Shown here one piece after another: positions 10,213 through 28,794 of a stretch of 64,000 bases of DNA. This DNA comes from Methanothrix soehngenii GP6. Lineage in GTDB: Archaea; Halobacteriota; Methanosarcinia; Methanotrichales; Methanotrichaceae. Location of the stretch: assembly GCF_000204415.1 (NCBI RefSeq), contig NC_015416.1, positions 558,001 through 622,000 of the forward strand, given 5' to 3'. Positions within the stretch are counted from its first letter, which is position 1. Each line of letters opens with the position of its first letter. The translations under genes were made by a program, and so were the position numbers. Below the pieces are notes generated by a model. It was not told where the DNA came from and ran no database searches. It saw only the letters and a program-made list of their open reading frames with translations.

Positions 10213-11404
10213 TGTTTTCGCCGACTCAATTTTGACCCCTCTATTTAAGGAAACGCCAATTCGTTTTTGACCCCCCCAAGAAGGAAAGCCTTCCCTCTCC
10301 AAGTATTCTGAGAGGTGGGCGGTAAGGTGAAAACGATGGCAGATGTACGTAGAATCGTAGACCTGTACGAACTCCATAAGTCCTACAAAAAAGTAGCCAG
10401 CGAACTGAACATATCCCGGAACACTGTGAAAAAGTATCTTCATCAGGTCAAAGATGTGCAAGAAGGATTGGCGGAGGAGATCATTCCCAAAAACCGAAAG
10501 ATCGTTCAGCCCTCTCGCGTTCTCACAGATCTTGTCCGGCAGAAGATCCACCAGTATCTTGAGTCAAACTTAGGACGCCCAAAAAACAACGACTCACGGC
10601 CAAAAGAATCTGGGAGCTTCTCATCCAGGATGGTCACAAAATAGGTTATACCAGCGTCAAAGACGAAGTCGTTCGCTAGAAACGCACTAATGGACCCCGA
10701 GAGGTGTTTATCTTGCAGGAGCCGCGTGTTGGTCAGCGTGCTGAATTCGACTGGGGCGAAGTCACGCTCAACATCGCCGAAGTATGGCAGAAATTCTACC
10801 TTGCGGTTTTTGTTTTACCCTTTTCACTTTATCGATTTGCTCGCCTCTACCACAGATCAGCCCGTCTGGAAGTGATCCAGGCCCATATCGAATTCTTCCG
10901 CGAAATCGGCTCAGTTCCCGATGCAATATTCTATGACAGAATGGCTGCAGCATACGATTCTCGAAAGCAGCAGTTCAATGATAAATTTCTGGAATTTTCT
11001 ATGCATTTCGGTTTTCAGCCCTGTGTTTGCAATCCAGCTTCACCTAACGAGAAAGGGACAGACGAAGAAAGTGTAGGCTATGTTCGGCGTGCCACCTTTG
11101 GCGAAATGAGTTCGTTTGCATCCATAAATGAGGCTACGGAATGGCTAAAAATGCGCCTTGTCGAGATAAATGGCCATCCTGTCTATCGTCGATCCAATGT
11201 GCCGGTCCAGGGACTTGATCAAGAGCGAGCCTTGATGCATCCATTGCCAACACTTGAATTTGAAAACTACGAACTGAAACGTGCAACTATTTCGCGGTAT
11301 TCATTGGTAAAATTTGACGGGAACTTCTACTCAATTCCGGATACATACCGCCCTAGATATATTACACTGAAGATATTAATGGATAGAATCGAGTTTCTTG
11401 ATTG
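10213..11404 (+). mobile_element. IS21-family element, left part only
   Basis: It starts TGTTTTCGCCGACTCAATTT at 10213, the TGT-start typical of IS21, with the repeated internal pattern (C)AATT-TTTGACCCC at about 10226 and 10260. It contains istA remains but no istB. The right side is lost at the IS481 insertion near 11405. Confidence 0.75.
10336..11404 (+). pseudogene. IS21 IstA transposase, frameshifted and truncated
   Basis: The N-terminus has the IstA helix-turn-helix (IVDLYELHKSYKKVASELNI and SRNTVKKYL). The frame breaks between about 10570 and 10700, then continues as PRVGQRAEFDWGEVTLNI (first catalytic Asp) and VPDAIFYDRM (second). The third catalytic block reads PNEKGTDEESVGYVRR. The C-terminal domain ends abruptly at RYITLKILMDRIEFLD where IS481 begins. 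Full IstA proteins have about 400-500 residues with an intact frame. Confidence 0.82.
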
Positions 11405-11405
11405 T

Positions 11406-12441
11406 GTAGTCCTGAAATTATTTCGCGTCCGACCTAGTTTTATAGTGTTTAAATTATTCATATAATTTCACAACCCAAACAGTCTATGGCCAATTGCGAA
11501 ATAAGCTTCCAATGGCATTTTTCGCCTGAAAGCCCTTTCTGGAGTCTCCAAGCTTTGGAAATTCAAGCTTCCATGAGGTCTATCGTTATACCAAGTGATA
11601 AACTCTTCGAATGAATGAAACGCAGGCCTGTGCTTGACGTATTCTCCGAAAAACCGTTCCAGCTTTCCGTTTGTCTGAGGATGCTTCGCTCTGGCTAATA
11701 TAGGCTTGATGCCATATTTTTTGAGGTGATCTTTGAATTCGCTGTTCCAGCTTCCGTCGTCATGGATTCTGTGGGCTCCAAACTCGCTGCCATGATCGAG
11801 TATCAGCTCCCTCAAGGGACAGAGCCACCAGAATTTGTCCACTAATTGGTCGATTATCAGCATGCTGTTCTCTGTATTGATCTCGGTGAACTCCCCTCCG
11901 GCCAGCACCATCCTGGATGCATCATCCAGAATTACGCAAACCTTGACATCAGTCCCATCCCATTCATGCCAGTCAATATGCCCCGCTGACATGCTGTGCT
12001 TTCGTTCATAACGAACCCACTTCCGGCGCTTCTGTTTCTTTAGATCTTCCTGGGCCAGGCCTGCTGCCTTCAGGTACATGTGTATGCGATTATGTGATAT
12101 GCAGATCTTAAATTGTTTCCGGATCACAGTCTCCAGCATGCGCGCTCCAAAGCGGTAGCGAGCATGGGCTGCTCTGATGGCCTCTGTCTCTTTCTCAGTG
12201 AAGGGTTTGCGGGGGCGACCAACTTTTTCGCCTAATACAGGTTCTTGCCCGGTCTCCTTGTATTCTTTAATGATCTGTTGGACTCTCCTTTGTGAGACCT
12301 TGACGTCCCGCGCAATCTCTTTTGTGGCTACCCCCTTGCGGTTTTGACGAAGGATATAACGAACCTTCGTCTTGTTCAATTTCATATCTTGGACTATGCG
12401 TCCAAGCTTAGATGATAGGCGAAATAATTTCGGGACTCTAC
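11406..12441 (-). mobile_element. IS481-family element
   Basis: Inverted ends: TCCTGAAATTATTTCGC at 11411-11427 and, inverted, TCCCGAAATTATTTCGC just inside the right end at about 12419-12435. Both are preceded by GTGTAG. It encodes one apparently intact transposase. A decayed copy of its right end lies at about 47680-47781. Confidence 0.8.
11468..12385 (-). CDS. IS481-family transposase
   Basis: About 305 residues from MKLNKTKVRYILRQNRKGVA. It has an N-terminal helix-turn-helix with TKEIARDVKVSQRRVQQIIK and a linker GRPRKPFTEKE. The rve/DDE core has D in HIDWHEWDG, D in LILDHGSEFGA and E in HPQTNGKLERFFGEY. A longer reading to 12457 exists, but it extends into the terminal repeat, so I use the internal ATG. 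No frame damage is seen, and it may be active. Confidence 0.88.
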   Translation of the reverse strand: MKLNKTKVRYILRQNRKGVATKEIARDVKVSQRRVQQIIKEYKETGQEPVLGEKVGRPRKPFTEKETEAIRAAHARYRFGARMLETVIRKQFKICISHNRIHMYLKAAGLAQEDLKKQKRRKWVRYERKHSMSAGHIDWHEWDGTDVKVCVILDDASRMVLAGGEFTEINTENSMLIIDQLVDKFWWLCPLRELILDHGSEFGAHRIHDDGSWNSEFKDHLKKYGIKPILARAKHPQTNGKLERFFGEYVKHRPAFHSFEEFITWYNDRPHGSLNFQSLETPERAFRRKMPLEAYFAIGHRLFGL

Positions 12442-12467
12442 ACCCATAGTTTACCATAGTAAAACAT

Positions 12468-12961: not shown

Positions 12962-14017
12962 TCATTGATCATCTCCCCAACACACTTTGGCCACATATTG
13001 ACCCGCATTATTCCCGGGATCTTTGTCATTAACGCCGAGCCAGAGCTCTCCCCCCTCGGGAGCAGTGAAAGTGGCATTGCTGCCAATGAAAATCGGCAAG
13101 CCTTCGGCGCCGATTCTTGCAATTAGCGACTCATGTCCCCAATCTGAACGGTAGGAGTAATCAGTCAGCCAATAGTCGACTTCATATGTTCCATCCGGTC
13201 CACAGGATATGCTTCCACTATTCGGCTGTACTGTACCAGTGGCAACAATGGAAATATTTTGCCCAGAGAGTATGCTGATGCCTGTATTGAACCATGACTC
13301 ACCTGCCCATGCCGTGGGTGGCACTTTAAACTCGGTGCAGCCATTTGAATCTGATTCCTCAACTATTGCCGGGATCGGATCGGCTAAAAAACCATCCTCG
13401 AAGAAGGTAGTGTATCCCTCTTCTTTCATCTGATCGGTCCATTCATTCTTAGGCATTCCATTAAAGGGACTTGTTTCTCCCTCGCCATACAGATCATCTA
13501 AGGGAGATAAGGTGTCACGCATGGTGGCATGAGCCCATGCATCGAAGACATATTCCTTCCCATCATTATCGCGGATAAGGACTGCACCATGATCACTGTT
13601 AACGTTCAATGGATTATACGTATCCATTTCTCCTCCAATCTGACCGATACTCTGAGAATCGATACCCATCCCCGCAAAAATATCCTGCAAATTGAAGGTG
13701 TGAACCGAACATGTGAAGGCTGTTCTCTCATCAGCAAATAATTTATCGCTTATCCTTCCCCATACATCGTTACTGACCCCTGCATTGGATGCGCTGAGCT
13801 TTTTCAGATACTCGACAAATCCCGCTTTAGCTTTCTCTAAATTGCTCGCTGAAGCGAGAGAGGGATTATTCTTCACGATCTGCTCACCAAACTGACGGAG
13901 GACTTTTGCATCATCTGATTCCTGGTCTGATGCTGCTGGTTCGGCAATAACAATGAAAAAAAGCGCCAATACTATAGCCATCGGCAGCAGACGGTAGACT
14001 ATTTTTTTCTTCAGCAT
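12962..14017 (-). CDS. Secreted protein: Cys/His/Asp papain-like region + LecA-like C-terminal domain
   Basis: An exported protein of about 351 residues. A signal peptide occupies about 1-30 (KKKIVYRLLPMAIVLALFFI). The middle part has TCSVHT, then NSDHGAVLIRD, then YVFDAWAHA. The Cys...His...Asp order recalls transglutaminase/papain-like enzymes, but I only infer this. The last 120 residues (SGQNISIVATGTVQPNSG, FIGSNATFTAPEGGELWLGV, NDKDPGNNAGQYV) resemble the LecA/PA-I-type galactose-binding fold. The start at 14017 is chosen because CAGGAGATAGTGATC precedes it. Possibly acts on the cell envelope. Confidence 0.6.
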   Translation of the reverse strand: MLKKKIVYRLLPMAIVLALFFIVIAEPAASDQESDDAKVLRQFGEQIVKNNPSLASASNLEKAKAGFVEYLKKLSASNAGVSNDVWGRISDKLFADERTAFTCSVHTFNLQDIFAGMGIDSQSIGQIGGEMDTYNPLNVNSDHGAVLIRDNDGKEYVFDAWAHATMRDTLSPLDDLYGEGETSPFNGMPKNEWTDQMKEEGYTTFFEDGFLADPIPAIVEESDSNGCTEFKVPPTAWAGESWFNTGISILSGQNISIVATGTVQPNSGSISCGPDGTYEVDYWLTDYSYRSDWGHESLIARIGAEGLPIFIGSNATFTAPEGGELWLGVNDKDPGNNAGQYVAKVCWGDDQ

Positions 14018-14249
14018 GATCACTATCTCCTGGATTGGAAGCATTTAATCTTAGCCCTTTGCGTGTTTGTTCAATGATAATCCCACAGTGGACTGCTCCC
14101 TCCGTAAGGGAAAGAACGACCTGAACCTACCCGTCAACCGGGTCCGATGTTCCATAGCCGGAAGCAGCCTTACGAGCATGATTGGTTCTCCTGACTGGAA
14201 TAGATAAACAATGTTCTCAGGAATGCTCTACAGTGCTGGGGCGCAGGGG

Positions 14250-15485
14250 TAGAGAGGGCTCCGGTCTTTAGGCCGGAGATGAATCGTACCCCGCCCTACG
14301 CTATGAACCTTAATATACTATAACAGCGTAGAACTGTACATGCTTAAGGCTTGCAAGTTCAGGCTTTATCCCACAAGGTCTCAGATAACCAAGATGGAGC
14401 GAACGCTGGACTTGTGCCGATGGACATACAACCAGACTCTAGCATACAGAAAGAACGCCTGGGAGAATGAAGGCAAATCAGTTTCCAAATATGAAACGAA
14501 CGCTCTTCTTCCTGGTTGGAAAGAGGATAAACCCGAACTGAGAGACGTATATGCTCAGACCCTTCAGAATGTTCAGGAGCGGGTAGATCTAGCCTTTAAA
14601 GCCTTTTTCAGAAGGGTTAAGGCGGGAGAAGAACCCGGATATCCCAGATTCCGAGGGAAGGGTTGGTACGATTCATTTACTTATCCACAACCTGAGAAGG
14701 GCGGCAATCTTGTTAACGGCATGGTACGTCTTCCCAAGATAGGCGATATCAAGATCAAGCTCCATCGCCAGATAGAAGGCAAGATCAAACGGCTGACCGT
14801 CAGAAGGACAGCCACAGGCAAATGGTTTGCATGCTTCTCCGTCGAAACTGAAGATGTTCCTCTCCCCCCTGGAAAGATGGGGCTGTAGTAGGTATTGATG
14901 TCGGCCTTGAGAGCTTCGCCACCTTTTCCAATGGTGAGACGATAGCTAATCCTCGATTCTTCCGAGAAGAAGAACACGAGTTAGCTAGAGCCCAAAGGAA
15001 ACTCTCTAAGGCTCCTAAAGGAACTCCAGATCGCAAGAAAGCTCTTAAGGTTGTTGAGCGAGTCCATGAGCGGATAGCTAACAAGCGATATGAGTTTGCC
15101 CATCGGGTTAGTCATAACTTGGTAGATAGATTTGGTCTAATATCTTTTGAAGATCTTAACATCAAAGGCATGGTTCATAATCATTGCCTGGCTAAAAGCA
15201 TCTCAGACGTAGCTTGGAACATGCTAGTGACTTTAACCTCTTACAAGGCTGCAAGTGCCGGTTCGGTGGTGGTCCTGGTAGATCCAAGGAATACGTCTAA
15301 GATGTGTTCCAGGTGTGGTACTCTCATTGAAAAGTCGCTGTCCGATAGAGTCCATAACTGCACTCAGTGCGGGCTGTCGATGGACCGGGATTGGAACGCA
15401 GCGATAAATATTCTCAGATTGGGATTGCAATCTGTCGGCACAGGAAGCCCTGGAAGCCCTGCTCTTTAGGGCGGGGAGCAGTCAC
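14250..15485 (+). mobile_element. IS1341-type (IS200/IS605 group) element
   Basis: It contains only tnpB-like sequence, no tnpA. The left side has a hairpin CTCCGG-TCTTTAG-GCCGGAG at 14259-14278. The right side has CTGCTC...GAGCAG (about 15459-15481), the type of structure that ends these elements and contributes to the TnpB guide RNA. Exact ends are not determined; the left end could begin as early as 14085. Confidence 0.65.
14340..15469 (+). pseudogene. tnpB: TnpB RNA-guided nuclease, one frameshift
   Basis: Frame one (14340-14888) gives the N-terminal part (ACKFRLYPTRSQITKMERTL, WTYNQTLAYR). Near 14878, at a GGGG tract, the frame shifts to continue as GIDVGLESFATFSNGE. The RuvC residues remain: D of GIDVG, E of ISFEDLNIKGM and D of MDRDWNAAINI. 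So does the zinc finger CSRCG...CTQCG. TnpB of IS200/605 elements is an RNA-guided DNA endonuclease. A single indel separates this copy from an intact protein of about 375 residues. A recent mutation or a sequencing error would explain it. Confidence 0.85.
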
Positions 15486-15548: not shown

Positions 15549-16568
15549 TCAGATTGATGAGCCCGTGGGATATGTGTAAACGCCATCAAGTTGGCTCAGA
15601 CCATAGAACTTCTCTGCAAGCTCCTGGTGGACTTCCTCTGGATCCACATCCTGAAACAGCTCTGGATAGAACAGCTTGGCCATGTAAATCTGGCAGATAA
15701 CAGAGCGCACGCCGTATCTGAGCTCTCCGGAGACCAGATAAACCCTACCATCCTTGACGGCCTTCACGTCAGCAAGCTCAGGGCGGGCGATGATCTCGTC
15801 TCTCAGCGTCTTCAGCTCATTTCCTGTGAATGCCTTGTCGCTGGACCTTTGCTGGATTATCACATCCGGATCAACCTCTACCACCCACTCCGGGCTGACG
15901 GTGGGATATGAATGAGTGCTGTTTCCCAGATCTTTTGCAATGTTGTCTCCGCCTGCCAGTCGGATCAATGTATCTGAGGGGTTGCCGTTAGAAACAGTGT
16001 AATACGGCTTTCCAGCCCATTCAAAGAAGACCTTGGGCCTGTCCTCAGGTTTTACGCTTGCGATGCGTTCTTGAATCATATCCTGATAGCCTGCGATAAA
16101 ATCGGTGATCTCCTGGGCGCGCTCTTCCTTCCCCATCAATGCTCCCAGCTTTTCCATAACCTCATTATCTTTGGCCGGATCTACAAGGGACTCGAGCATC
16201 ACAGGGATTCCTGCATTCTCAAGCTCTTTTGAATCATCATCCGACAGCATGGTATCTGCGATCACCAGGTCCGGATGGAGCGATATTATCCGCTCCAGAT
16301 CTGGCGAATAGGAGCTCTTCCCGGCAATAGGCACCTCTTCTAAGCCCGGCGGGAAATGAGAATAAGAATCCCTTCCTACCAGGCTCTTTTCTCCATCCAG
16401 AGCATAAAGGTACTCTGCAACACCTGTCCCCAGCGATACAACCTTTTGCACCGGCACATTCACGCTTACAGAGCGTCCGGTGGAGTCAACAACTGTTATG
16501 CTCTCAGCACTACCCGCCATGATGAATAGGCTGAGGCATATCATTATCAAGACGATTTTCTTGAGCAA
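15549..16568 (-). CDS. BtuF-like ABC substrate-binding protein 1
   Basis: Periplasmic-type (pseudoperiplasm) binding protein of the TroA/BtuF fold for corrinoids, haem or iron chelates. 339 residues. A signal peptide is at about 1-21 (LKKIVLIMICLSLFIMAGSA), the fold starts ITVVDSTGRSVSVNVPVQKV, and the family pattern VIADTMLSDDDSKELENAGI is present. The end LFYPELFQDVDPEEVHQELA is shared with the other paralogs here. The start is TTG at 16568, backed by AAGGAGGAT seven bases upstream. It is isolated from btuCD (39.5 kb), so it presumably shares that permease. Ligand not provable from sequence. Confidence 0.85.
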   Translation of the reverse strand: MLKKIVLIMICLSLFIMAGSAESITVVDSTGRSVSVNVPVQKVVSLGTGVAEYLYALDGEKSLVGRDSYSHFPPGLEEVPIAGKSSYSPDLERIISLHPDLVIADTMLSDDDSKELENAGIPVMLESLVDPAKDNEVMEKLGALMGKEERAQEITDFIAGYQDMIQERIASVKPEDRPKVFFEWAGKPYYTVSNGNPSDTLIRLAGGDNIAKDLGNSTHSYPTVSPEWVVEVDPDVIIQQRSSDKAFTGNELKTLRDEIIARPELADVKAVKDGRVYLVSGELRYGVRSVICQIYMAKLFYPELFQDVDPEEVHQELAEKFYGLSQLDGVYTYPTGSSI

Positions 16569-17151
16569 ATGCTTATCCTCCTTGTTAAGATTAATTTGCT
16601 CTAGATCAATTTAACTTGTATATAAACATATGCTGATTAATTTAGAGTACTTTTATAAAAATTAGATGTTGCTACCTTAAATATATGGGCTAAAGCCATC
16701 CTGTCGTTGCGAGGGCAATTTTGAGAGTGGATTCATCATCCTCCGCGCTTCTCACATGGGAAAATCGATCTGACTCTCTGATACAGCTTCAATTTTCATT
16801 AGGATAGGCAGCTTTCTATTAAATCGGATTTTCTATCGAATTTGCGCCTTCTCGATACCTAAATTTCATTGCTCCATGGCGTCTGTTCTGCTTGTCGCCC
16901 AGCGAAAGCTTATTAAATCAAGTTAATAAGACTTAAATCAAATTAAGTTTATAGGCTTCGACATTCAGACTTGATGTTTCTGAATTAGGAGCGGATACGC
17001 AATCTGGGAGAAATGGAATCGAGATCAAGAGATAGGGCAACGGATTCCTATTGTATGCATAGGCTGTGATCCATTGTATTGGCTGCCCTGAAAAATTTGT
17101 ATCTTGAGATCGAAGGATGGATGGAAGAGAAGATGTCGAAGGTGCTTGGTA
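16569..17151. other. Intergenic region between btuF1 and cbiC
   Basis: 583 bp without a convincing gene. It holds the btuF1 promoter (TATATA-rich at about 16620) and an ATCAATTTAACTTG element at about 16602-16616, which matches 13 of 14 bases of the cobN1 operator core. The shared promoter architecture lies at 16903-16941. The leader to cbiC is about 210 nt long and contains only a short frame (17013-17069, 18 codons) that I do not consider a gene. Confidence 0.5.
16903..16941 (+). promoter_or_regulatory. Island-type promoter/operator (cbiC)
   Basis: GCGAAAGC (BRE-like) is followed by TTATTAAA (TATA) and two TTAAATCAA repeats at 16913-16921 and 16933-16941, exactly 20 bp apart. The same arrangement occurs before btuF2, cobN1 and cobN2. 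The repeats overlap and follow the TATA box, so a bound protein would block TBP/TFB. Confidence 0.65.
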
Positions 17152-17778
17152 ATGGATGAGAAATATACCGATATTGGAGCCACTACTCCTGAGGCAATGG
17201 ATATAAGCAGAAGGAGCAGAAAGATCATCTCGGAGATAGTGGGAGACAGAACGCCAGAGGACAGAATCAGACAGAGATGCGCAATAGCCACTGGCGACCC
17301 CAGTGTGGCCGAGATCATGAGGTTCGTGAAGGATCCCATAAGTGCAGGGCTAAGGGCCCTTGATGAAAAGGCCAGGATATTTGTGGATATCAATATGGTA
17401 AAGGATGGAGTGGTCAAGAAAGGCCATCAATGCTCCATCACAGCCATGATTGGAAAGGGCGATGATCTGGCCGAAAAAGATGGAATTACCAGGACTTCGG
17501 CAGGCGTTCTGGCATTTCAAAGCGAGTTATCTGGAGGCATCGTGATGATAGGCAATGCGCCATCAGCACTTCTGACTCTCTGCGACCTCATAGCCTCTGG
17601 GATTGTCAAGCCGGCCCTGGTCATCGGCACGCCAGTCGGCTTTGTGAACGCAGCAGCAAGCAAAGAACGTCTCAGGAGTCTGGACGTGCCGTCCATATCG
17701 ATCGTGGGCACGCGCGGGGGAACGCCTATTGCAGTAGCAGCCATGAATGAGATGATCAATATGTATGATAGATCCTGA
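17152..17778 (+). CDS. cbiC: Cobalt-precorrin-8 methylmutase CbiC
   Basis: Moves the C-11 methyl group to C-12 to give cobyrinate in the anaerobic (early cobalt) corrin pathway. About 208 residues; CbiC/CobH proteins have about 200-210. Family blocks: IVGDRTPEDRIRQRCAIATG, INMVKDGV, GIVMIGNAPSALLTLCDLI and PALVIGTPVGFVNAAASKE. The catalytic His region is KKGHQCSI (conserved His expected near the second block). I start at the ATG at 17152, where homology begins, rather than the upstream GTG/ATG at 17104. It stands alone here, without other cbi genes, behind an island-type operator. Confidence 0.9.
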   Translation: MDEKYTDIGATTPEAMDISRRSRKIISEIVGDRTPEDRIRQRCAIATGDPSVAEIMRFVKDPISAGLRALDEKARIFVDINMVKDGVVKKGHQCSITAMIGKGDDLAEKDGITRTSAGVLAFQSELSGGIVMIGNAPSALLTLCDLIASGIVKPALVIGTPVGFVNAAASKERLRSLDVPSISIVGTRGGTPIAVAAMNEMINMYDRS

Positions 17779-17871: not shown

Positions 17872-19419
17872 TTACAGCCCACCGCTCCTCGAAACGATTT
17901 TCTCTACTGGACCAGGCTGAGGTATCACTTCAGGTATTATTCGCTCAAATGGAACCTCATACAAAGGCTTCTTGAATTTCGATCCCGTCTGAGACGACAG
18001 GCACTGATGGAAGACATTGTTCCTGTTCAGCCCCGCCTCCAGCATCTGCGGCATGTTGTCCCCCCTTAGGCGCGTGACATCGTTATCCCAGGCATACTGG
18101 TATGCTTCGCCAAAGCTGATCCTTCCATCGCCGTCCTCATCCGCAGAGGGCTCGCTGAAGGCCATGATATAGCCGTAGATCGATTCGCTGCCGCTGTCGG
18201 ATGGATTGGGATCATCGGGTCCGTCTATGTCCGGATAGGATGAAGAATCTGTCGAGGCCGATGTGAATATCACGCGGTTGGTCTCTCCATCTGCTGTCAG
18301 GTCGCTTTCCGCGGGCACGAATGTTCCATCGCTGTATTTGCCGATCAGGCTGCCGCTATGGCATGCCTCCACGATAATCGCCATCTCTTTGCAGGTGATC
18401 CTGTCCAGCCAGTTGTCCAGATCGCCTGCATATATCGTTCCGCCAGAAGTGCCGGTGGAGCAAACCAGGCCGTCAACTCCGCCATGAGAGCTGTAGAAGA
18501 ACAGCACCTTATCGTTGACGCCAGACTTGGCGGCAACCTCGTTTATTGCCCATTGCACGTTCTCAATCGTATTTAGCGCATCCACGCCCGTATGGCCTGT
18601 ATGGGGGCTCAGGAAGTAGATGTGGCTGTCGTCGATCCCCAGGCTCTTGAGAATGCTGTATATGCCCTCGGTATCTTCGTCAAAGGTATCTGGAAGATCA
18701 TTGAATCCGCACACGATTACCGCCCAGGCGTCACACTGCGAGGCAACTGCCAAGAGACCTGAATCAATCATCCTTATGTCGGAGATTGCATCTGTTAGGC
18801 GCGACGGTTTCTTATAAAATGTGATGAGCGCTGGATCAGCCCTGATGGACTCCTTGTCGAAGACCTGGCGAGAATCAACCTTTGGCCACCATTCCGTCTC
18901 TATGACCTGCTGATCTCTTGTAACCGCATCCACCACCACCAGCTTAACGGGATGGGCAAAATGCGCTCCTGGCATCTCGTCGATCATAAAAAGCCAGCTT
19001 GGGTTCTGGCTGACGATTGCAGCCGAAGGCCGGCCAAAAGTCTCAAAAGCCGGCTCTATCAGAGTACCCTGAGGCAGAATCTCGCTGTACTGAAGTACCT
19101 TCAATCCATCTTCCTGGTCGGCGTTAGCCCATAGAGGATTGACAATGGAATTCTGTACTAGATTGGCGGCATCTGCCTTATTTAATAGCGCCTGCGAGCC
19201 CCCGAATGCTGGAACCTCAGTATCTGTTGCAGCGGGCTCGGCCAGAGAGAGAAGCTCTGAGCTTTTATTTGCCATTGAGATCATTTCGGGCTTTTGCATT
19301 ACAGGACTGATCCGTAAATTTTCGGCCGCCATTGCCCCGATTCCCGAAAACAACGGTACTAATAGCAGCGCTCCCACCAATAGAGCGGCAGCTAACCTTA
19401 TAACTGACGATTTTTCCAC
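17872..19419 (-). CDS. Secreted legumain-like (C13, clan CD) cysteine peptidase with prodomain and EF-hand
   Basis: 515 residues. A signal/anchor segment spans about 8-30. A prodomain follows (about 75-205) with SWLFMIDEMPGAHFAHP and TEWWPKVDSRQVFD. The caspase-like peptidase domain contains WAVIVCGFNDLPDTFDED, the catalytic His311 in FFYSSHGG and Cys352 in IIVEACHSGS. A canonical EF-hand loop occurs at 426-437 (D-E-D-G-D-G-R-I-S-F-G-E), so calcium may control it. GTG start at 19419, with AGGAGGAT upstream. Target unknown; legumain-type enzymes cut after Asn/Asp. The gene below encodes a free prodomain-like protein. Confidence 0.82.
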   Translation of the reverse strand: MEKSSVIRLAAALLVGALLLVPLFSGIGAMAAENLRISPVMQKPEMISMANKSSELLSLAEPAATDTEVPAFGGSQALLNKADAANLVQNSIVNPLWANADQEDGLKVLQYSEILPQGTLIEPAFETFGRPSAAIVSQNPSWLFMIDEMPGAHFAHPVKLVVVDAVTRDQQVIETEWWPKVDSRQVFDKESIRADPALITFYKKPSRLTDAISDIRMIDSGLLAVASQCDAWAVIVCGFNDLPDTFDEDTEGIYSILKSLGIDDSHIYFLSPHTGHTGVDALNTIENVQWAINEVAAKSGVNDKVLFFYSSHGGVDGLVCSTGTSGGTIYAGDLDNWLDRITCKEMAIIVEACHSGSLIGKYSDGTFVPAESDLTADGETNRVIFTSASTDSSSYPDIDGPDDPNPSDSGSESIYGYIMAFSEPSADEDGDGRISFGEAYQYAWDNDVTRLRGDNMPQMLEAGLNRNNVFHQCLSSQTGSKFKKPLYEVPFERIIPEVIPQPGPVEKIVSRSGGL

Positions 19420-19458
19420 CTAAGACATCCTCCTGCGGTAATATAACAATACAATAGG

Positions 19459-19956
19459 TTATCTTTCAAACACTATCATGCTAGGGTCTTGCCTTTTGGC
19501 AGTGCTGTCAAAGACCGGCACCTCAAAGACCGGCCACCATTCTGCATCCATGCTCTTGATCTCTCCACTGACAGCATCCAGCAGCGCAATTATCGCCGGA
19601 TGGGCAAAATGAGCACCAGGGGAAAGATCAATGAAGAACAGCCAGCTTTGGCGTTCACAGGCCAAATATTCAGGCGCCTTGCTCTCATCAGTGACCGCTT
19701 GTCTTACCTTCGATCCAGCATCAATCAAGGCTGGGTACTGATGCATGCGAAAACTACTATCGTTGATATCCACAGCAACTGTGGCAATCATCATCTGTGC
19801 GGCATCCTCCTTGGTCATTAGCGTCTGGTTCAAAGAGCCGTTAACTGAATCGGATGCCTGGACAGAATTCGCCAAAATGATAAAAAAAAATGCTGTCAAT
19901 GCAATGGCACAAAGCGCTAACAAATGCCGGTGATAACCGACTCTTTTGGCAAGCAT
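19459..19956 (-). CDS. Stand-alone secreted homolog of the C13 peptidase prodomain
   Basis: About 165 residues with a signal anchor (LLALCAIALTAFFFIILANS). The mature part aligns with the prodomain of the neighbouring peptidase from TKEDAAQ to the end. Shared blocks are SWLFFIDLSPGAHFAHP, then a DAV segment, then EWWP...VFD and DPSMIVFE. It stops exactly where the peptidase domain would start, so it is a prodomain without an enzyme. It lies 40 bp upstream of the peptidase on the same strand. It could act as an inhibitor or folding helper. The ATG at 19956 is preferred because GAGG lies seven bases upstream. Confidence 0.75.
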   Translation of the reverse strand: MLAKRVGYHRHLLALCAIALTAFFFIILANSVQASDSVNGSLNQTLMTKEDAAQMMIATVAVDINDSSFRMHQYPALIDAGSKVRQAVTDESKAPEYLACERQSWLFFIDLSPGAHFAHPAIIALLDAVSGEIKSMDAEWWPVFEVPVFDSTAKRQDPSMIVFER

Positions 19957-20137
19957 GCCCAATCCTCAGGCCAGAATGCTTGCTGCTAGGATAAATATCT
20001 TCCTGATAGTTCATTATAATACATTGTCATGAATCTCAAGCTAATATTTTATCTGGATTTGCCGTCGAACCCCATCACGGAATCCTTGTGCGGATTTTTT
20101 TCCTGTTGGTTTTGCTGATAATGGACTGACATTTACC

Positions 20138-20175: not shown

Positions 20176-20200
20176 ATTTGATTGATTTAAGGTGATGGTC

Positions 20201-21250
20201 ATGAGACTCAGAAGACATCTATTGAGGGAAGCTCTAAGCATATCGATCACCTTGATTTTGCTTATGGCTGCAGCAACTGTTTTATGCGCAAGCTGTGCTG
20301 CACAGGCCGCGTCTGAGAATATTACTATTATCGATTCGGCAGGGAGAGAAGTAGAGATTCCGTATCCAGCTAACAAAGTCGTCTTGCTCACAGCCGACAA
20401 TTGCGAACTGGCGGTCGTATTGGATGCCCGGGATAAGGTTGTTGGAGTAGAAAAAAGCGCACCCGGTTACGCAGAAATTGGGGAGATGTTCGGGAAAGCA
20501 GCAAATGCCGGGGGCAGCCAGGAGCCAGACTTTGAGAAGATTGCAGATTTAAACCCTGATGTGGTCTTGGGGTATAAATCCTCACTTGAGAATGGAGTGG
20601 CAGATGAGCTGAAAGGCATGGGAATCCCCTTTGTCGTCTGCGAGTGCAACAGAATTCAAACTTTTGAGAAAGATGTTGAGCTTATGGGCAGGATTCTCGG
20701 CAAGGAAGATAATGCAAAAGAGTTTCTTGCCTTTCACAATTCCATAATGGATTTGATTGCAGAAAGGACCCGCAGCATAAGTTCCGATCAAAGGACTTCT
20801 CTGTATCTTACTGGGGGCGGGACAACATTTGGCAAAGATGGCGGCATAGAACCGTATTTGAGCGCAGTTGGAGCGAAAAGCATTGGCTCAGAGCTTCCTG
20901 GAGAATCATCAGTTACAGTGGATCCTGAATGGGTTTTGGATCAAGATCCTCAGGTGATCGTTCATTGGATTACGAGCTCAAAAATAAAACCAACTCCTGA
21001 ACCCCTCATTGAAGTGAAGGAGTCTTACTCAAACGACCCCGTTTTGAACATGACGACGGCCGTAAAGGATGGAAGAGTGCACGTCATTGGGTGGTGTTTG
21101 TTTAAGGGACTGCGGTTCTCCATAGGTCTTCTATACTGGGCCAAATGGTGTCATCCGGAGTTGTTCCAGGATATTGATCCTGAAGAGTATAACCGCGAAT
21201 ATGTGAAAAAATTCTTGGGTATTGATCTTGAAAATGTGTGGGCTCAGTGA
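20201..21250 (+). CDS. BtuF-like ABC substrate-binding protein 2
   Basis: Exported corrinoid/iron-chelate-type binding protein of about 349 residues. The basic N-terminus MRLRRHLLREALS precedes a hydrophobic segment with SCAAQAASE near the cleavage site. The mature protein starts NITIIDSAGREVEIPYPANK. It is the most divergent paralog: it has VVLLTADNCELAVVLDARDK where the others have VxSxxxRASE. It still ends WCHPELFQDIDPEEYNRE. The ATG at 20201 is chosen because the full anti-SD match AAGGTGAT ends four bases before it; GTG and ATG alternatives at 20192 and 20195 overlap that site. Confidence 0.83.
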   Translation: MRLRRHLLREALSISITLILLMAAATVLCASCAAQAASENITIIDSAGREVEIPYPANKVVLLTADNCELAVVLDARDKVVGVEKSAPGYAEIGEMFGKAANAGGSQEPDFEKIADLNPDVVLGYKSSLENGVADELKGMGIPFVVCECNRIQTFEKDVELMGRILGKEDNAKEFLAFHNSIMDLIAERTRSISSDQRTSLYLTGGGTTFGKDGGIEPYLSAVGAKSIGSELPGESSVTVDPEWVLDQDPQVIVHWITSSKIKPTPEPLIEVKESYSNDPVLNMTTAVKDGRVHVIGWCLFKGLRFSIGLLYWAKWCHPELFQDIDPEEYNREYVKKFLGIDLENVWAQ

Positions 21251-21323: not shown

Positions 21324-22781
21324 CATGCGTCTTCGGTTAAGACCACAATCCCTCCCTGAATCGTTCTCTATTGACATGCGGATCAAGTGCCTCACTTGAA
21401 CACACATTTAAGACTGTAGAGAAATCATGCTCTATTCCAAGGTAATCCAATATCGCAGACAATAGATGCGAGGAATTTTGGACAAAGATGTTACTCCATC
21501 TCAATTGAGTAAAGCGAACCATTTTGGCACCGGGATTTAGTTTTCGCACTATCGAATACAATTTTCTGCTGACAAGAAGCGTCAAAATTGAGACCCAGAT
21601 TAAGGCCTCAATCGCGTATGGGCTCTTTGTTGTTATCTGATCTAGCGCATATCTGCTCTTCAATTCTTTGAAGATGAGTTCGACTTCCCATCTCCCAGAA
21701 TAAACCGCTGCAACCTCTGAAGCATTTAATATATCTGATGAAATATTAGTTAGATAAAAGTGATGTTCTTCTGCTTCGGTATTATAAATGGCGACTAATC
21801 TAAATATCTTATTATCTTTTTTGCTCTCGCCGCGATAGGATCTTCGGTCAAATGATACTTCCACATTTACATCAAAAATATCATCGGATTTTTCTAGTTT
21901 AATATCTTTCAAATGTTTCCCGTTTAGATCAACGCCACGGGTATTGCGTACCTGATTTGTTCCTACTATTAAGGGATTTGCATTGCTCTTGAGGCGAGAG
22001 ACAAAGGATCCGCCGTTTTCAACTATCCTGCTGAACAGTTGATATTTGTAAAATCCTAGATCTATTAATAATATTATATCTTTTACCCAGGGACCTATTT
22101 TTAAGGTCTTTACATCGTTGGTATTCTCAGGCAGTATCGAAATGCTTTTTGGACTATTGGCTATGGCACTTGTTAAAAATGCCACTTTTACTCCTGCAGC
22201 CACTTTTCGGGAACGAGTGGCTGGCCACTTATCAGCAAGGCTTTTATGAAGCCGAATAATAGTGCTATCTTGAATCATTACATCCCGAAAGCTAGCTAGA
22301 CGGTCACCCAAAATCCTACTGGGTTCTTCAGAAATGTGCTCTATGCCGTGAATCACACATTCTCTGAGAAATTTTACCAGTTCTGGAGTGAAACGATCAT
22401 GCCAACTGCTGTCTGAAATTGATACTTTCCCTCTGACTTCGTAAACGCGTTTCAACTCCACTATAGTTCGATACAACTGTGAGCCATAGCCGATAGCGAG
22501 AGTCCAAAACATTATCACTGGATCAATCTTTCTTTCTCTTTCGATCAATCCGCTCTCTCTTGCTTTATCTCGAATCCACTTGGATTCAAACATCCTGGTT
22601 AGTTCTTGCTCGACTATATCTTTCTCAATTTGTGATACTCCTTTTCGCATGCTAATCCCTTGGATTGAATATAGTATCACATATTCCATATAAATCTTAT
22701 TAGATGAACTATTCCAGAAGATAAATTAATGTGCATTTATAACGATTGTGCTAGGAATGATCTGCTAACCGAAGACGCATG
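21324..22781 (-). mobile_element. IS4-family element (1458 bp), complete
   Basis: The terminal repeat CATGCGTCTTCGGTTA at 21324-21339 is matched in inverted form at 22766-22781. The element is flanked by a perfect 10-bp target duplication GCTGGCCATT (21314-21323 and 22782-22791). It contains one intact transposase gene. Perfect duplications suggest a recent insertion. A 10-bp duplication fits the ISH8-like group of IS4. Confidence 0.93.
21337..22689 (-). CDS. IS4-family transposase
   Basis: Up to 450 residues; an internal start at 22647 (MRKGVSQ) is also possible. The DDE residues are visible: D in VMIQDSTIIRLH, D in IILLIDLGFYKY and E in YSGRWEVELIFKELKSRY, the Y-x2-R-x3-E-x6-K signature of IS4. 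No interruption is seen. Its stop lies 14 bp inside the left terminal repeat. The gene is AT-richer than the flanking island. Confidence 0.92.
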   Translation of the reverse strand: MEYVILYSIQGISMRKGVSQIEKDIVEQELTRMFESKWIRDKARESGLIERERKIDPVIMFWTLAIGYGSQLYRTIVELKRVYEVRGKVSISDSSWHDRFTPELVKFLRECVIHGIEHISEEPSRILGDRLASFRDVMIQDSTIIRLHKSLADKWPATRSRKVAAGVKVAFLTSAIANSPKSISILPENTNDVKTLKIGPWVKDIILLIDLGFYKYQLFSRIVENGGSFVSRLKSNANPLIVGTNQVRNTRGVDLNGKHLKDIKLEKSDDIFDVNVEVSFDRRSYRGESKKDNKIFRLVAIYNTEAEEHHFYLTNISSDILNASEVAAVYSGRWEVELIFKELKSRYALDQITTKSPYAIEALIWVSILTLLVSRKLYSIVRKLNPGAKMVRFTQLRWSNIFVQNSSHLLSAILDYLGIEHDFSTVLNVCSSEALDPHVNRERFREGLWS

Positions 22782-22915: not shown

Positions 22916-23004
22916 AATAATGTGATGTGGGAAAGAGCACATCTCATGGATGTACCGGCTTCAAAATTTCAAACGATAACCGAGATAAAAATGGCGATGT
23001 CAAT

Positions 23005-26000
23005 ATGAAGAAGATCAAGATCGCATATATCAGCACAACAGGGCTTGACGTATTCCCATTAATAACAGCGCTCGAGGAGTTGGAGACAGAAAAAGGTGAT
23101 GTGGCAGAGGTCATTCTCCGATCCAAAGATGATCTGGCCGATCCAAAGACCATGGACGATTTCATGAGCTTCGCAGTCGGGTCGGATCTGGCAATACTGA
23201 GCCTTCACGGCGGCAAGGCGATCCTTGGCAGTTTCGATGAGATAGCCGGTAGACTAAGAGATGCAAATGTTCCGATGTACGCCCAGGATACGTCCAAGCT
23301 GGACCCTGAGCTCATGAGCATCTCAACGGTAGGTAGAGATGTGCATACCTCGATATTCCGCTATCTTGCCTATGGGGGAAAAGATAACTCCAAGAACCTG
23401 CTCCTTTACTGCCTGAATCAATTCCTCGGCACAAGCTACGAGGTCGGCGAGCCGAAGAGGCCTCCCTGGGAGGGGATATACCACCCGGACTTTGGCTACA
23501 TTGCCACGCTTGATGAATACTTCCGGAAGAACTACAAAGAAGGCAGGCCCACAATTGGTCTGTGGTTTTACAGCGGCTTCTGGCAGGCCGACAACCTGAG
23601 GTTTGTCGATAGCCTGATCAGAGAGATCGAGAGAAGAGATGCCAACGTCATCCCGGTCTTTCTCTACAGCCTGAAGGATGTGGAACTCGGGACCAAGGGC
23701 GCCGAATGGGTGATTGATAACTATTTCATGAAAGACGGGCAGCCGGTGATAGACGCCCTGATCTCCACCCTCATGTTCTCCCTTACCATGAAGCCCAGGG
23801 ATGAGGAGAAGCTTTTTGACAAACCATTCTTCGAGAGGCTGGGCGTTCCAGTGATTAAGGCAATACTGACCTACAACACCGAGGAGGAGTGGAGGGAGTC
23901 ATTTCAGGGTTTGAATCCGATGGATGTGAGCATGAGCATTGCCATGCCCGAATTCGACGGAATGCTGATAGCGGTGCCCGTAGCCGCCAAAAAGATGACA
24001 GAGACTGACACGCTTACCGGAGCCAAGCTAACCAGATTTGAGCCGATCGATGAGAGGGTGCGAAAGATCGTCAGTCTCACCTTGAACTGGGCAAAACTGA
24101 GGCATATCTCGAATCAGGAGAAAAGGGTAGCCATAATCTTCCACAACTACCCTCCCAGAAACGACCGGATTGGCACCGCCTTCGGCCTTGATTCGCCTGT
24201 ATCCGTATACAACATCCTGCGTGACCTTGAAGGGGAAGGATACGGGCTGGAGAGCCTTCCTGAGAGCGGCCAGGTTCTGATCGAGAGCATGATCTCCAGG
24301 GTCACCAACGACAGACGCTGGTCGAGCCCTGAGATGATGGCTGAGAAGGCGATCGACCTCGTCCCTGCAGAGCAGTACAGAAAATGGTTTGAAGAGCTTC
24401 CCGGGGCCATACAGGAGAAGATGGTCATGTCTTGGGGAGAGCCGCCAGGCGAACTCTTCGTCCACCAGGGAGAGCTCATAATCCCCGGAATCAGCAACGG
24501 CAATATCTTCATTGGACTTCAGCCGCCACGTGGTTTCCTGGAAAACCCTGAAGCCATTTATCACAGCCCGGACCTTCCCATACCGCACCACTATTATGCC
24601 TATTACCGCTGGATCCGGGACGTCTTCCGGGCTGACCTGGTCATGCACATCGGAAAACATGGCTCCCTGGAATGGCTTCCCGGAAAGTCGGTGGGGCTTT
24701 CAGAATCATGCTTCCCAGACATCGCCATATCCGATCTGCCTAACATCTATCCATACATCATAAACAACCCCGGGGAGGGAACCCAGGCCAAGAGGAGGAG
24801 CTACTGCTGCATCATCGACCACCTGATTCCGGTGATGCACAATGCCGACATTTATGATGAGATGGCGCAGATCGAGGTGATGCTTCACGATTATACTCAT
24901 GCGGCATCCGAAGATCCGGCAAAGTTGCCGACTCAGAGAAAGATGATCTGGGAGAAGGTTTGCGAGGCGAAGCTTGACCACGACCTGGAGACAGATGAAG
25001 AGACCGCCTTCAGCGACTTTGACAGTTTCCTGGAGAGACTGCACGGATATCTTCATGAGATAGCAGACACTCAGATCAGAGACGGCCTGCACATCTTTGG
25101 CGAACCTCCAGAGGGCTCCAGGCTGGAAGAATTTCTGGTGGCCTTGACCAGATTGAAGAACGGAAAGGTGCCGTCTTTGAGAGAAGCTCTGGTTCATCTT
25201 CAGGGATTTGACTACGACCATCTGCTGGAGTGCCGGGGAAAGCTTTTGGACGGGGAAAGAAGCGGAGGCCATATCATCGAGGAGGTTCACGAGCTCTCGC
25301 TTAAGATCATGAAGCGGTTTCACGAGGCGGGATTCTCCGTCGACGATATCCCGTCAGTCCTATTAGAGATTGTGGGCCGCACAGACCCTGATGTTGAGGC
25401 GGTGTTAAGGTATATCGGCATGACCCTTGTGCCCAATATCGCCTCCACGACAAACGAGCTGACCAATACGCTGGTCGCCTGCAGAGGCGGATTTGTGCCG
25501 CCGGGACCTTCGGGGGCTCCTACCAGAGGAATGGCCGACATCCTTCCCACGGGCAGGAACTTCTACTCGGTCGATCCGCTGGCGATACCATCACAGGCCG
25601 CCTGGAAGGTAGGCATTGCTCAGGCAGAGGCTTTGCTTGATAGATATCTGAAAGAGGAAGGCAAGTATCCCGAGAACGTTGGAATCATAGTTTGGGGCAC
25701 TCCCATCATGCGCACCAAGGGAGATGACGTGGCCGAGATCCTCTATCTCATGGGAGTTCGGCCCGTATGGGAGCCGCGCAGCGGAAGAGTAACCGGCCTG
25801 GAACTCATACCCCTGCAGGACCTGAACCGACCCCGCATAGATGTCACCCTCAGAATAAGCGGCTTCTTCCGGGACGCTTTTCCGAACATCGTGACCCTCC
25901 TCGACGAGGCAGTGGAGCTGGTGGCCAGCTTGAGGGAGCCGCCTGAATCCAACTATTTGGCCAGGCATGTGGCAGAAGAGATCGCTGAGAAGGTCGGCCA

Positions 26001-26760
26001 GGGAATCGACTTTGAGAAGGCAAAAGAGGAGGCATGCTACAGGATCTTTGGCTGCCGCCCCGGCGCTTACGGTGCAGGAGTGTGCGATGCCATCGACTCC
26101 AAGAACTGGAAGGACGAGCACGATCTGGCAGAGATTTACATCACCTGGGGGGGCTACGCCTACGGGAAGAAGAACTACGGCATAACTGTGCCCGAGCAGT
26201 TCAGGAGGAGGCTTGGCCAGCTGGATCTGACTGTGAAGAACGAGGACTCCAGAGAGTGGGACATGCTTGATGGCGACGATTTCTATTCCTTCCATGGGGG
26301 CATGATCGCTGCAGTCAAATCAATCAAGGGGGAGCTGCCCAAGTCGTACTGCGGTGACAGCTCAGACCCGGAGCGGGTGAAGATAAGGAATACCGTTGAA
26401 GAGACCAAGCACATCTTCCGGGCCAGGATTCTCAATCCCAAATGGATCGAGAGCATGAAACGCCACGGCTACAAGGGCGCTGGTGACATGTCAAGGATGG
26501 TGGACATTGCTTTTGGCTGGGATGCCACAGCTGAGGTTCTGGAGGACTGGATGTACGAGGAGCTTGCCAACAGGTACGCCCTGGACGAAAAGATGCAGGA
26601 GTGGCTCAAGGATGTGAATCCTCATGCTCTACTGAATATATCTGAGCGTCTCCTGGAGGCAATAGACCGGAATATGTGGAATGCAACAGACGAGATGAAA
26701 CAGAAACTGAGAGAGGTGTATCTGGAGATAGAGGGGATGATTGAGGATGACAGCGCATAG
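23005..26760 (+). CDS. cobN: CobN/BchH-type metal chelatase large subunit 1
   Basis: Large tetrapyrrole-binding subunit of the class I ATP-dependent chelatases (CobN inserts Co2+ into hydrogenobyrinate a,c-diamide; BchH inserts Mg2+ into protoporphyrin). About 1251 residues, the normal length. The CobN/Mg-chelatase domain covers most of the protein, with the conserved core MHIGKHGSLEWLPGKSVGLS at about 545-565 and INNPGEGTQAKRRSYCCII just after. I start at MKKIKIAYIST; a GTG at 22927 would add 26 residues without homology. Its true metal and tetrapyrrole in methanogens are unresolved. It would need the AAA+/vWA partner encoded at 41.3 kb. The next gene overlaps its end. Confidence 0.88.
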   Translation: MKKIKIAYISTTGLDVFPLITALEELETEKGDVAEVILRSKDDLADPKTMDDFMSFAVGSDLAILSLHGGKAILGSFDEIAGRLRDANVPMYAQDTSKLDPELMSISTVGRDVHTSIFRYLAYGGKDNSKNLLLYCLNQFLGTSYEVGEPKRPPWEGIYHPDFGYIATLDEYFRKNYKEGRPTIGLWFYSGFWQADNLRFVDSLIREIERRDANVIPVFLYSLKDVELGTKGAEWVIDNYFMKDGQPVIDALISTLMFSLTMKPRDEEKLFDKPFFERLGVPVIKAILTYNTEEEWRESFQGLNPMDVSMSIAMPEFDGMLIAVPVAAKKMTETDTLTGAKLTRFEPIDERVRKIVSLTLNWAKLRHISNQEKRVAIIFHNYPPRNDRIGTAFGLDSPVSVYNILRDLEGEGYGLESLPESGQVLIESMISRVTNDRRWSSPEMMAEKAIDLVPAEQYRKWFEELPGAIQEKMVMSWGEPPGELFVHQGELIIPGISNGNIFIGLQPPRGFLENPEAIYHSPDLPIPHHYYAYYRWIRDVFRADLVMHIGKHGSLEWLPGKSVGLSESCFPDIAISDLPNIYPYIINNPGEGTQAKRRSYCCIIDHLIPVMHNADIYDEMAQIEVMLHDYTHAASEDPAKLPTQRKMIWEKVCEAKLDHDLETDEETAFSDFDSFLERLHGYLHEIADTQIRDGLHIFGEPPEGSRLEEFLVALTRLKNGKVPSLREALVHLQGFDYDHLLECRGKLLDGERSGGHIIEEVHELSLKIMKRFHEAGFSVDDIPSVLLEIVGRTDPDVEAVLRYIGMTLVPNIASTTNELTNTLVACRGGFVPPGPSGAPTRGMADILPTGRNFYSVDPLAIPSQAAWKVGIAQAEALLDRYLKEEGKYPENVGIIVWGTPIMRTKGDDVAEILYLMGVRPVWEPRSGRVTGLELIPLQDLNRPRIDVTLRISGFFRDAFPNIVTLLDEAVELVASLREPPESNYLARHVAEEIAEKVGQGIDFEKAKEEACYRIFGCRPGAYGAGVCDAIDSKNWKDEHDLAEIYITWGGYAYGKKNYGITVPEQFRRRLGQLDLTVKNEDSREWDMLDGDDFYSFHGGMIAAVKSIKGELPKSYCGDSSDPERVKIRNTVEETKHIFRARILNPKWIESMKRHGYKGAGDMSRMVDIAFGWDATAEVLEDWMYEELANRYALDEKMQEWLKDVNPHALLNISERLLEAIDRNMWNATDEMKQKLREVYLEIEGMIEDDSA

Positions 26761-27715
26761 GATCGATGAGGGCATCTATCACCCAAAAGATTTGGAGGAT
26801 AGGGAAATTAGCAGAGCAGCACCATCTCCACCCGGCCGAATTGTCTCCCTGACGCCCATAGCATCAGAGCTTATCTGCATCTTCGGCTGCATCGACAGGA
26901 TCGTGGGACGGGATGATCATTCCACATTTCCTCCTGCGCTTGGTGAGAAACCGGCGGTTGGGAGCGGCGTTTACAGGACGATCAGCGCAAAGCGGGTGCT
27001 GGATCTGGACCCCGATATCGTGGTCACAGGCAGGCGCGTCCCGCAGGAGGAGTTTGAAAAGATAGGGTCTGCAGGCATCCCTGTAGTCGTCATTGGGACT
27101 GGCTGCGAGCTGGAGGCTCTCATAAGCAACGCTTGGAACCTGGGCAGGATGCTTGCTACTGAGAAGAAGACGGGAGAGCTCGTAGATTTTTTGGAGAGAT
27201 ATGCGAACCTTATCAGAGATAGGATCGGGAGCCTGAATATCGAGAGCAGACCCCTTGTCTACAACGAATGCGCCTTTAGAAAATATATGACCAAAGCCTG
27301 CACAGCCGCGGATGAGGGTATAGCTCTTGCCGGGGGCGCAAATATAGCCCACGGTGAGGATCTGGGCAGGCTGGCAGTGAGCGAAGAATGGCTGATTGGG
27401 AATAACCCGGATATAATCATCTCTCAGGTCTCCTCTACTTCTCCAGCAACTGTCGAGATGCTGCTCTCAAAGAGGGATGAGATTCTGTCACGGCCGGAGC
27501 TGAAAGGAACCAACGCCATCAGAAACGGACGGGTCTACATAAGCCATCTCTCTATCAGAAGAGGGCCTCGAATGGTTGGATATCTGCTTTATTTGGCAAA
27601 ATGGTTCCATCCCGAACTGTTCCAGGATATCGATCCGGCAGCGGTGGAAAAGGATATGCTGCAGAAGTTTTACGGGCTCAATCTGGAAGGGGCATGGGCC
27701 TATCCAGAGGTATGA
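26747..27715 (+). CDS. BtuF-like protein 3 without signal peptide, overlapping cobN1
   Basis: About 322 residues of the BtuF/TroA fold. It lacks a hydrophobic export signal: the start MTAHRIDEGIYHPKDLEDRE is polar and leads straight to RIVSLTPIASELICIFG. Its ATG lies inside the last codons of cobN1 (14-bp overlap), so the two are co-translated. The C-terminal WFHPELFQDIDPAAVEKDML matches the exported paralogs. A binding protein kept in the cytoplasm could carry a tetrapyrrole or metal complex to or from the chelatase; this is inference. A lost leader peptide is the alternative. Confidence 0.78.
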   Translation: MTAHRIDEGIYHPKDLEDREISRAAPSPPGRIVSLTPIASELICIFGCIDRIVGRDDHSTFPPALGEKPAVGSGVYRTISAKRVLDLDPDIVVTGRRVPQEEFEKIGSAGIPVVVIGTGCELEALISNAWNLGRMLATEKKTGELVDFLERYANLIRDRIGSLNIESRPLVYNECAFRKYMTKACTAADEGIALAGGANIAHGEDLGRLAVSEEWLIGNNPDIIISQVSSTSPATVEMLLSKRDEILSRPELKGTNAIRNGRVYISHLSIRRGPRMVGYLLYLAKWFHPELFQDIDPAAVEKDMLQKFYGLNLEGAWAYPEV

Positions 27716-27742
27716 AGATTCACATTTAAGGAGCTGGTAAAC

Positions 27743-28762: not shown

Positions 28763-28794
28763 TATTCAAGATAACTTTAGTGGAGTTGAAATAG

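Follow-up and report, generated by a model that had tools for sequence, protein, structure and literature searches.

The DNA analyzed here carries a short gene that encodes a free-standing paralogue of the N-terminal domain of the C13-like cysteine peptidase encoded next to it. We consider it slightly favored, at a probability of roughly 0.55, that the short protein is a trans-acting prodomain paralogue and most likely the cognate inhibitor of the neighboring peptidase. From the sequences, action in trans on the adjacent enzyme is the best inference for this protein. The short gene is an old paralogue of the N-terminal domain found in the peptidase itself; it has been retained as an independent gene whose product is, by predicted signals, co-exported with the enzyme.

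The two genes lie on the minus strand of the window, which means the whole stretch of 64,000 nucleotides that was analyzed, in a host genome of two contigs and 3,026,645 bases. Their features are as follows.

19459..19956, minus strand: free-standing prodomain-like protein, 165 aa (open reading frame with ATG start; orthologues in six other Methanotrichaceae genomes)
19855..19956, minus strand: predicted signal peptide of the short protein, KR...HRH, hydrophobic core, VQA-S (sequence; Kyte-Doolittle peak 2.89)
19462..19830, minus strand: prodomain-like domain of the short protein, residues 45-167 in the 167-aa numbering (profile match; AlphaFold2)
19429..19434, minus strand: ribosome-binding site AGGAGG of the peptidase gene, within the 39-bp gap (sequence)
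17872..19419, minus strand: C13/C14-like cysteine peptidase, 515 aa, consisting of signal peptide, N-domain and catalytic domain (Pfam; PDB legumain matches)
18805..19197, minus strand: N-terminal prodomain-like domain of the peptidase, residues 75-205 (BLASTP against the short protein; profile match 1.4e-32)
18484..18486, minus strand: predicted catalytic His312, SSHGG (invariant in alignment A2)
18361..18363, minus strand: predicted catalytic Cys353, EACHSGS (invariant in alignment A2)
18106..18141, minus strand: EF-hand-like calcium loop DEDGDGRISFGE, residues 427-438 (pattern kept in 28 of 31 fused relatives)

The short gene starts at an ATG at 19956, with GAGG 7 nt upstream, and stops at 19459; an alternative in-frame TTG start at 19962 would give 167 aa. 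The peptidase gene lies downstream on the same strand after an intergenic gap of 39 bp, starts with a GTG at 19419, with AGGAGG 9 nt upstream, and stops at 17872. BLASTP aligned the short protein to the peptidase at 31% identity over 129 aa (E 3e-21), and this match was limited to short-protein residues 45-167 and peptidase residues 75-203, with nothing else notable. Moreover, the end of the short gene coincided with the end of the domain, in which the core motif FIDLSPGAHFAHP and an EWWP block were present. These results bore out the original prediction that the upstream gene consists of the peptidase prodomain only and ends at the boundary of the catalytic domain. Signal-peptide-like N-termini were found on both proteins, with hydrophobic peaks of 2.89 for the short protein and 2.67 for the peptidase, so that the export claimed for both also holds as a prediction.

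The window peptidase passed the Pfam cut-offs of both PF01650 Peptidase_C13 (38.7 bits versus a cut-off of 22.8, E 1.1e-9) and PF00656 Peptidase_C14 (25.7 bits versus a cut-off of 21.4, E 1.1e-5), and it matched plant and animal legumains in PDB. By these matches, therefore, the enzyme is of clan CD type and falls between the C13 and C14 families. The designation "legumain-type" was right as to the C13 match, but since the C14 cut-off was passed too, "C13/C14-like, clan CD type" describes the enzyme better. A C-terminal activation peptide plus LSAM, which characterizes legumain proper, was not found, only about 75 residues being left after the EF-hand-like loop, and the extra domain of the window peptidase sits N-terminally. 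His312 of SSHGG and Cys353 of EACHSG were invariant in the six orthologues of alignment A2, and the dyad motifs His-Gly and [EQ]-[AQ]-Cys were also found in most of the distant relatives. The loop DEDGDGRISFGE agrees with the 12-residue EF-hand pattern DxDxDGxIxxxE, from which a calcium site is predicted. As it is kept at a roughly constant distance of about 62-75 residues past the catalytic Cys in 28 of 31 relatives, the loop belongs to the peptidase core; the EF-hand noted earlier near the C terminus is thus real, but it is not a C-terminal add-on.

Free and fused copies of the N-terminal domain retained the loop D..P.A(H/N)(F/W).HP, of which the D, the P and the first H were invariant in 46 rows. 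AlphaFold2 modeling with 46 homologues gave a mean pLDDT of 92.2 and a pTM of 0.87, and predicted, in order, one helix, five strands, a short helix and a final strand. No model of Pfam, NCBIfam or PADLOC covered the domain. Foldseek searches of the domain model against solved structures and against viral models returned nothing at E 0.001, with TM-scores of about 0.3 or below among the matches listed, while a PDB sequence profile search of the domain gave chance matches only, the best being ribosomal protein S9 at E 0.061. As far as the libraries of solved and viral structures go, the predicted fold appears to be undescribed, and lacking a Pfam or NCBIfam model, these genes are currently nameless by family. 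A PepSY/FTP-type domain, suggested by the helix-plus-strands layout, was supported by neither Pfam nor Foldseek; weak PepSY hits occurred in 2 of the 46 members (best E 0.0028) and, where they could be located, were confined to the first helix. A full-length peptidase model from six sequences reached a pLDDT of 34.7, too poor to place the N-domain on the active site.

The distribution of the pair was examined in 238 genomes of the same class as the window's. Eight of them possessed the domain, all eight in the free-standing form. The peptidase gene was the same-strand neighbor of the short gene in seven, and the contig of the remaining genome (G223) breaks off about 50 codons into a recognizable peptidase gene. 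Among the Methanotrichaceae, the pair was present in all seven genomes having the domain, one of them cut by a contig edge with the peptidase start visible, and only 3 of the 23 genomes of the window's genus carried it. The outer neighbors varied among genomes (named by eye, they included a Tex-type RNA-binding protein, carB, a flavoprotein, CbiX and BtuF, among others), indicating that the pair itself is the conserved unit. Further scans of GTDB contigs and whole genomes detected additional pairs on the Methanomethylovorans hollandica plasmid pMETHO01 and in three Desulfuromonadia (including Geobacter sp. L1geo), three Anaerolineae and three Bacteroidota. The total is thus 16 complete pairs, besides one that a contig end truncates. 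The search for prodomain-only genes beside C13 peptidases elsewhere, which had been proposed as a check, was therefore positive in four phyla, the archaeal one plus three bacterial, with at least three independent origins (see below).

Linkage within the pairs was tight, with intergenic distances of at most 68 bp, a 4-bp stop/start overlap in two Bacteroidota pairs, and a 23 bp overlap in two Methanotrichaceae pairs if the earliest start is used. The short gene preceded the peptidase gene except in the Anaerolineae and two Bacteroidota pairs, where the order was reversed. Gene order bears on the possibility that the short protein serves mainly as an intermolecular chaperone, templating the folding of the peptidase, rather than as an inhibitor. 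Propeptides often do both jobs, and in most pairs the short gene comes first and hence is made first; the reversed pairs do not fit this argument, and as the partner peptidases retain their own N-domain, folding help in cis should suffice. One arrangement in G388 (L020:1380-1800, minus strand) consists of a 112-aa domain, an in-frame TGA, a new ATG and then, in the same frame, a peptidase lacking the domain. Here the separate domain could work only in trans, which counts in favor of a folding helper, but the arrangement may have come about by a nonsense mutation instead of a natural split of the gene. Taken together, a predominantly folding role is possible but distinctly less probable than inhibition, which we also favor by analogy with the co-transcribed SpeB-Spi and staphopain-staphostatin pairs.

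The domain extends beyond methanogens: fused peptidases with the same N-domain were found in Acidobacteriota, Eisenbacteria, Flavobacteriaceae, Desulfovibrio, other Halobacteriota-type archaea and others. In fourteen genomes the fused enzyme had no adjacent short gene, indicating that the partner is not universally required. One fused peptidase, from an Acidobacteriota MAG (L029:3845-5284), has a domain nested in the Methanotrichaceae clade and no short partner, reflecting either horizontal transfer or MAG contamination. Another archaeal genome (G1019) encodes a 274-aa protein (L076:1384-2208) in which the N-domain is joined to an unknown region plus a weak PGF-CTERM-like anchor, with no catalytic domain; a fused peptidase is located on another contig of this genome.

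A maximum likelihood tree of 49 domain sequences grouped the Methanotrichaceae short proteins into one clade (support 98/93) and their fused partners plus one Acidobacteriota sequence into another (98/91), the two clades being joined at 100/100. The 18 sequences of the signal-less system formed a separate clade (99/98). A single clade of all free-standing forms was rejected (p-AU 1.7e-9), as was joining the free forms of Methanotrichaceae with the signal-less ones (p-AU 2.2e-4), those of Methanotrichaceae with G740 (p-AU 1.5e-5), or the signal-less ones with G740 (p-AU 0.0185). The three free-standing groups are thus mutually separate, and by this topology the free-standing partner arose at least three times and stayed with its enzyme in each lineage; the domain is short and several terminal branches are long, making the deep branching order unreliable. 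Furthermore, the short protein was 43-60% identical among Methanotrichaceae genera. Synonymous changes outnumbered replacement changes in all comparisons of short proteins, with dN/dS of 0.09-0.29. The short proteins are under purifying selection, slightly weaker in nearly all comparisons than that on the partner peptidases.

These data also bear on whether the short gene is merely a recent, functionless truncated duplicate; a recently truncated peptidase copy followed by catalytic remnants had been named as fatal to the original prediction. The short gene is indeed a paralogue of part of its neighbor. However, the deep congruent orthology across genera, the supported clade of its own, the purifying selection and the recurrence in four phyla rule out recent truncation or a pseudogene, as do its own start site and signal peptide and the content of the 39-bp gap behind it, where we looked for a catalytic remnant and found none, only the ribosome-binding site of the peptidase. 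A functionless duplicate is therefore scarcely credible.

Predicted signals agreed within all 16 complete pairs, both partners having one in 7 and neither in 9, so the two proteins share a compartment by this measure; the match may stem partly from the duplication events themselves. Signal-less peptidases were nearly all paired, and the unpaired fused ones were predicted to be exported, as would be expected of an inhibitor that protects the cytoplasm, in an association that rests largely on one clade. The exception, an unpaired and signal-less ORF of G1012 (L077), begins inside the domain with an apparently incomplete start and was set aside.

Under the inhibitor reading, the peptidase would be made as a zymogen whose N-domain covers or stabilizes the catalytic domain and is then removed or displaced from it. 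We infer that the free copy would bind the same surface of the catalytic domain and, once bound, keep the enzyme off in the compartment of its synthesis. The short protein is a small homologue of its partner's own prodomain and is encoded adjacent to it, as in propeptide-type trans pairs. Against inhibition, the fused enzyme already has its own domain copy, and the additional one might therefore serve as a chaperone, as part of a structural complex or as a decoy. For instance, a stable non-catalytic subunit or adaptor could dimerize with the fused N-domain, building a regulated complex or binding substrates; free and fused copies have one fold and the core motif in common and always occur together in paired lineages. 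A protein this small, with no additional domain, is less likely to be an adaptor, and we regard this role as rather unlikely overall.

A more remote idea is self-protection of a toxin-antitoxin-like kind, in which the peptidase would be a harmful effector, either a secreted weapon or a cytosolic death protease, and the short protein its immunity partner. The patchy occurrence within the window's genus, the stop/start overlap in two pairs and the plasmid location of the M. hollandica pair could be read in this way; in tblastn searches of plasmids and phages, pMETHO01 was the only replicon with both the short gene and the peptidase. The PADLOC "caspase" model matched the window peptidase at 5e-8, but this is a generic caspase-fold match. 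Most pairs are chromosomal, and around them we found ordinary, mixed neighbors with no consistent defense pattern, one pair lying near AbiEii and Fic genes. Such a function is accordingly improbable. In the window, transposase-like genes (10315-12457, 14340-15469 and 21337-22689; by eye) lie around the pair, which fits its patchy occurrence. Five paralogous BtuF-like ABC substrate-binding proteins (15549-16568, 20192-21250 and 26741-29805), also named by eye, surround a cobalamin-related region with CobN-like (22927-26760) and CbiC-like (17104-17778) genes, and a 360-aa protein with a hydrophobic N terminus and no Pfam match is encoded at 12962-14044 on the minus strand.

A lone copy of the core motif, which might likewise be taken to favor self-protection, is encoded by a probable phage. 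Two IMG/VR contigs of 112,670 and 177,773 bases (3300014656_000016 and 3300014613_000001), apparently from the same or closely related viruses, each encode a 230-aa protein with the domain core (L099:2419-3111 and L100:2419-3111). The protein ends in FYFVDLEPHANWAHPCLYVFVEED plus a short tail, and its C-terminal part matches the domain core (profile score 43.8 bits; E 1.2e-12 in a set of 1,000 sequences). No peptidase gene was found adjacent to it. A neighboring gene matches phrog_10141 at 1.9e-41, which suggests that the contig is probably phage, and the protein may possibly be a viral inhibitor of host C13-like peptidases.

Pairs of an enzyme and a prodomain paralogue are known for papain-like peptidases. 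Our literature search on prokaryotic legumain, archaeal C13 peptidases and stand-alone propeptides of such enzymes returned nothing on this pair, nor any enzyme/prodomain-paralogue pair described for the legumain/caspase clan or in archaea. A broader and doubtful proposal is that the free-standing domain founds a new family of clan CD (C13-like) inhibitors or regulators with an undescribed fold, acting on such peptidases in archaea and bacteria. It would have evolved repeatedly through prodomain duplication, and at least one phage would have copied it as a means of switching off the caspase-like peptidases of its host. With repeated independent origin and pairs in four phyla, what looked like one odd gene becomes a general design, testable with small soluble proteins from harmless organisms. 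If the free domain inhibits, prokaryotic C13-like peptidases have a natural off-switch that is genetically encoded. It would offer a route to the substrates of these peptidases and to what triggers their activation, and would hint at how cells keep such enzymes safe.

Among known systems, bacterial orthocaspases (C14) share the caspase-type His/Cys dyad with the window peptidase, in line with its C14 match. To our knowledge, no bacterial orthocaspase is paired with a free-standing N-domain copy. Orthocaspases cleave after basic residues (PMC6426788). Eukaryotic legumain (C13) has a related catalytic domain and a C-terminal AP/LSAM prodomain that covers the active site, and its LSAM can stay bound after cleavage (PMC9788469). 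Whereas the LSAM is produced in cis at the C terminus, the domain described here is N-terminal, has no sequence match to it and is also encoded by a separate gene. PepSY (peptidase propeptide and YPEB domain) shares the idea of a small propeptide-type domain, but beyond the weak hits given above, no PepSY structure was among the Foldseek matches listed. Spi resembles the SpeB prosegment, and like the short protein here it is a small protein encoded beside a cysteine peptidase (streptopain, family C10); SpeB, however, has a papain fold (clan CA) unrelated in sequence to this pair. Spi is described as cytoplasmic and its peptidase as exported, whereas in every complete pair studied here the predicted signals place both partners in one compartment. 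In SpeB-Spi and staphopain-staphostatin, a cysteine peptidase is co-transcribed with its inhibitor, whose role is considered to be the prevention of premature activity; the Btp/Bfp-Bti/Bfi genes of Bacteroides likewise encode peptidase and inhibitor adjacently and are co-transcribed, the Bti inhibitors being exported (PMC3462683). The adjacency of staphostatin and Bti/Bfi genes to their peptidase genes thus parallels the present pair, but neither kind of inhibitor is a copy of the prodomain of its target enzyme, and the peptidase families are different ones.
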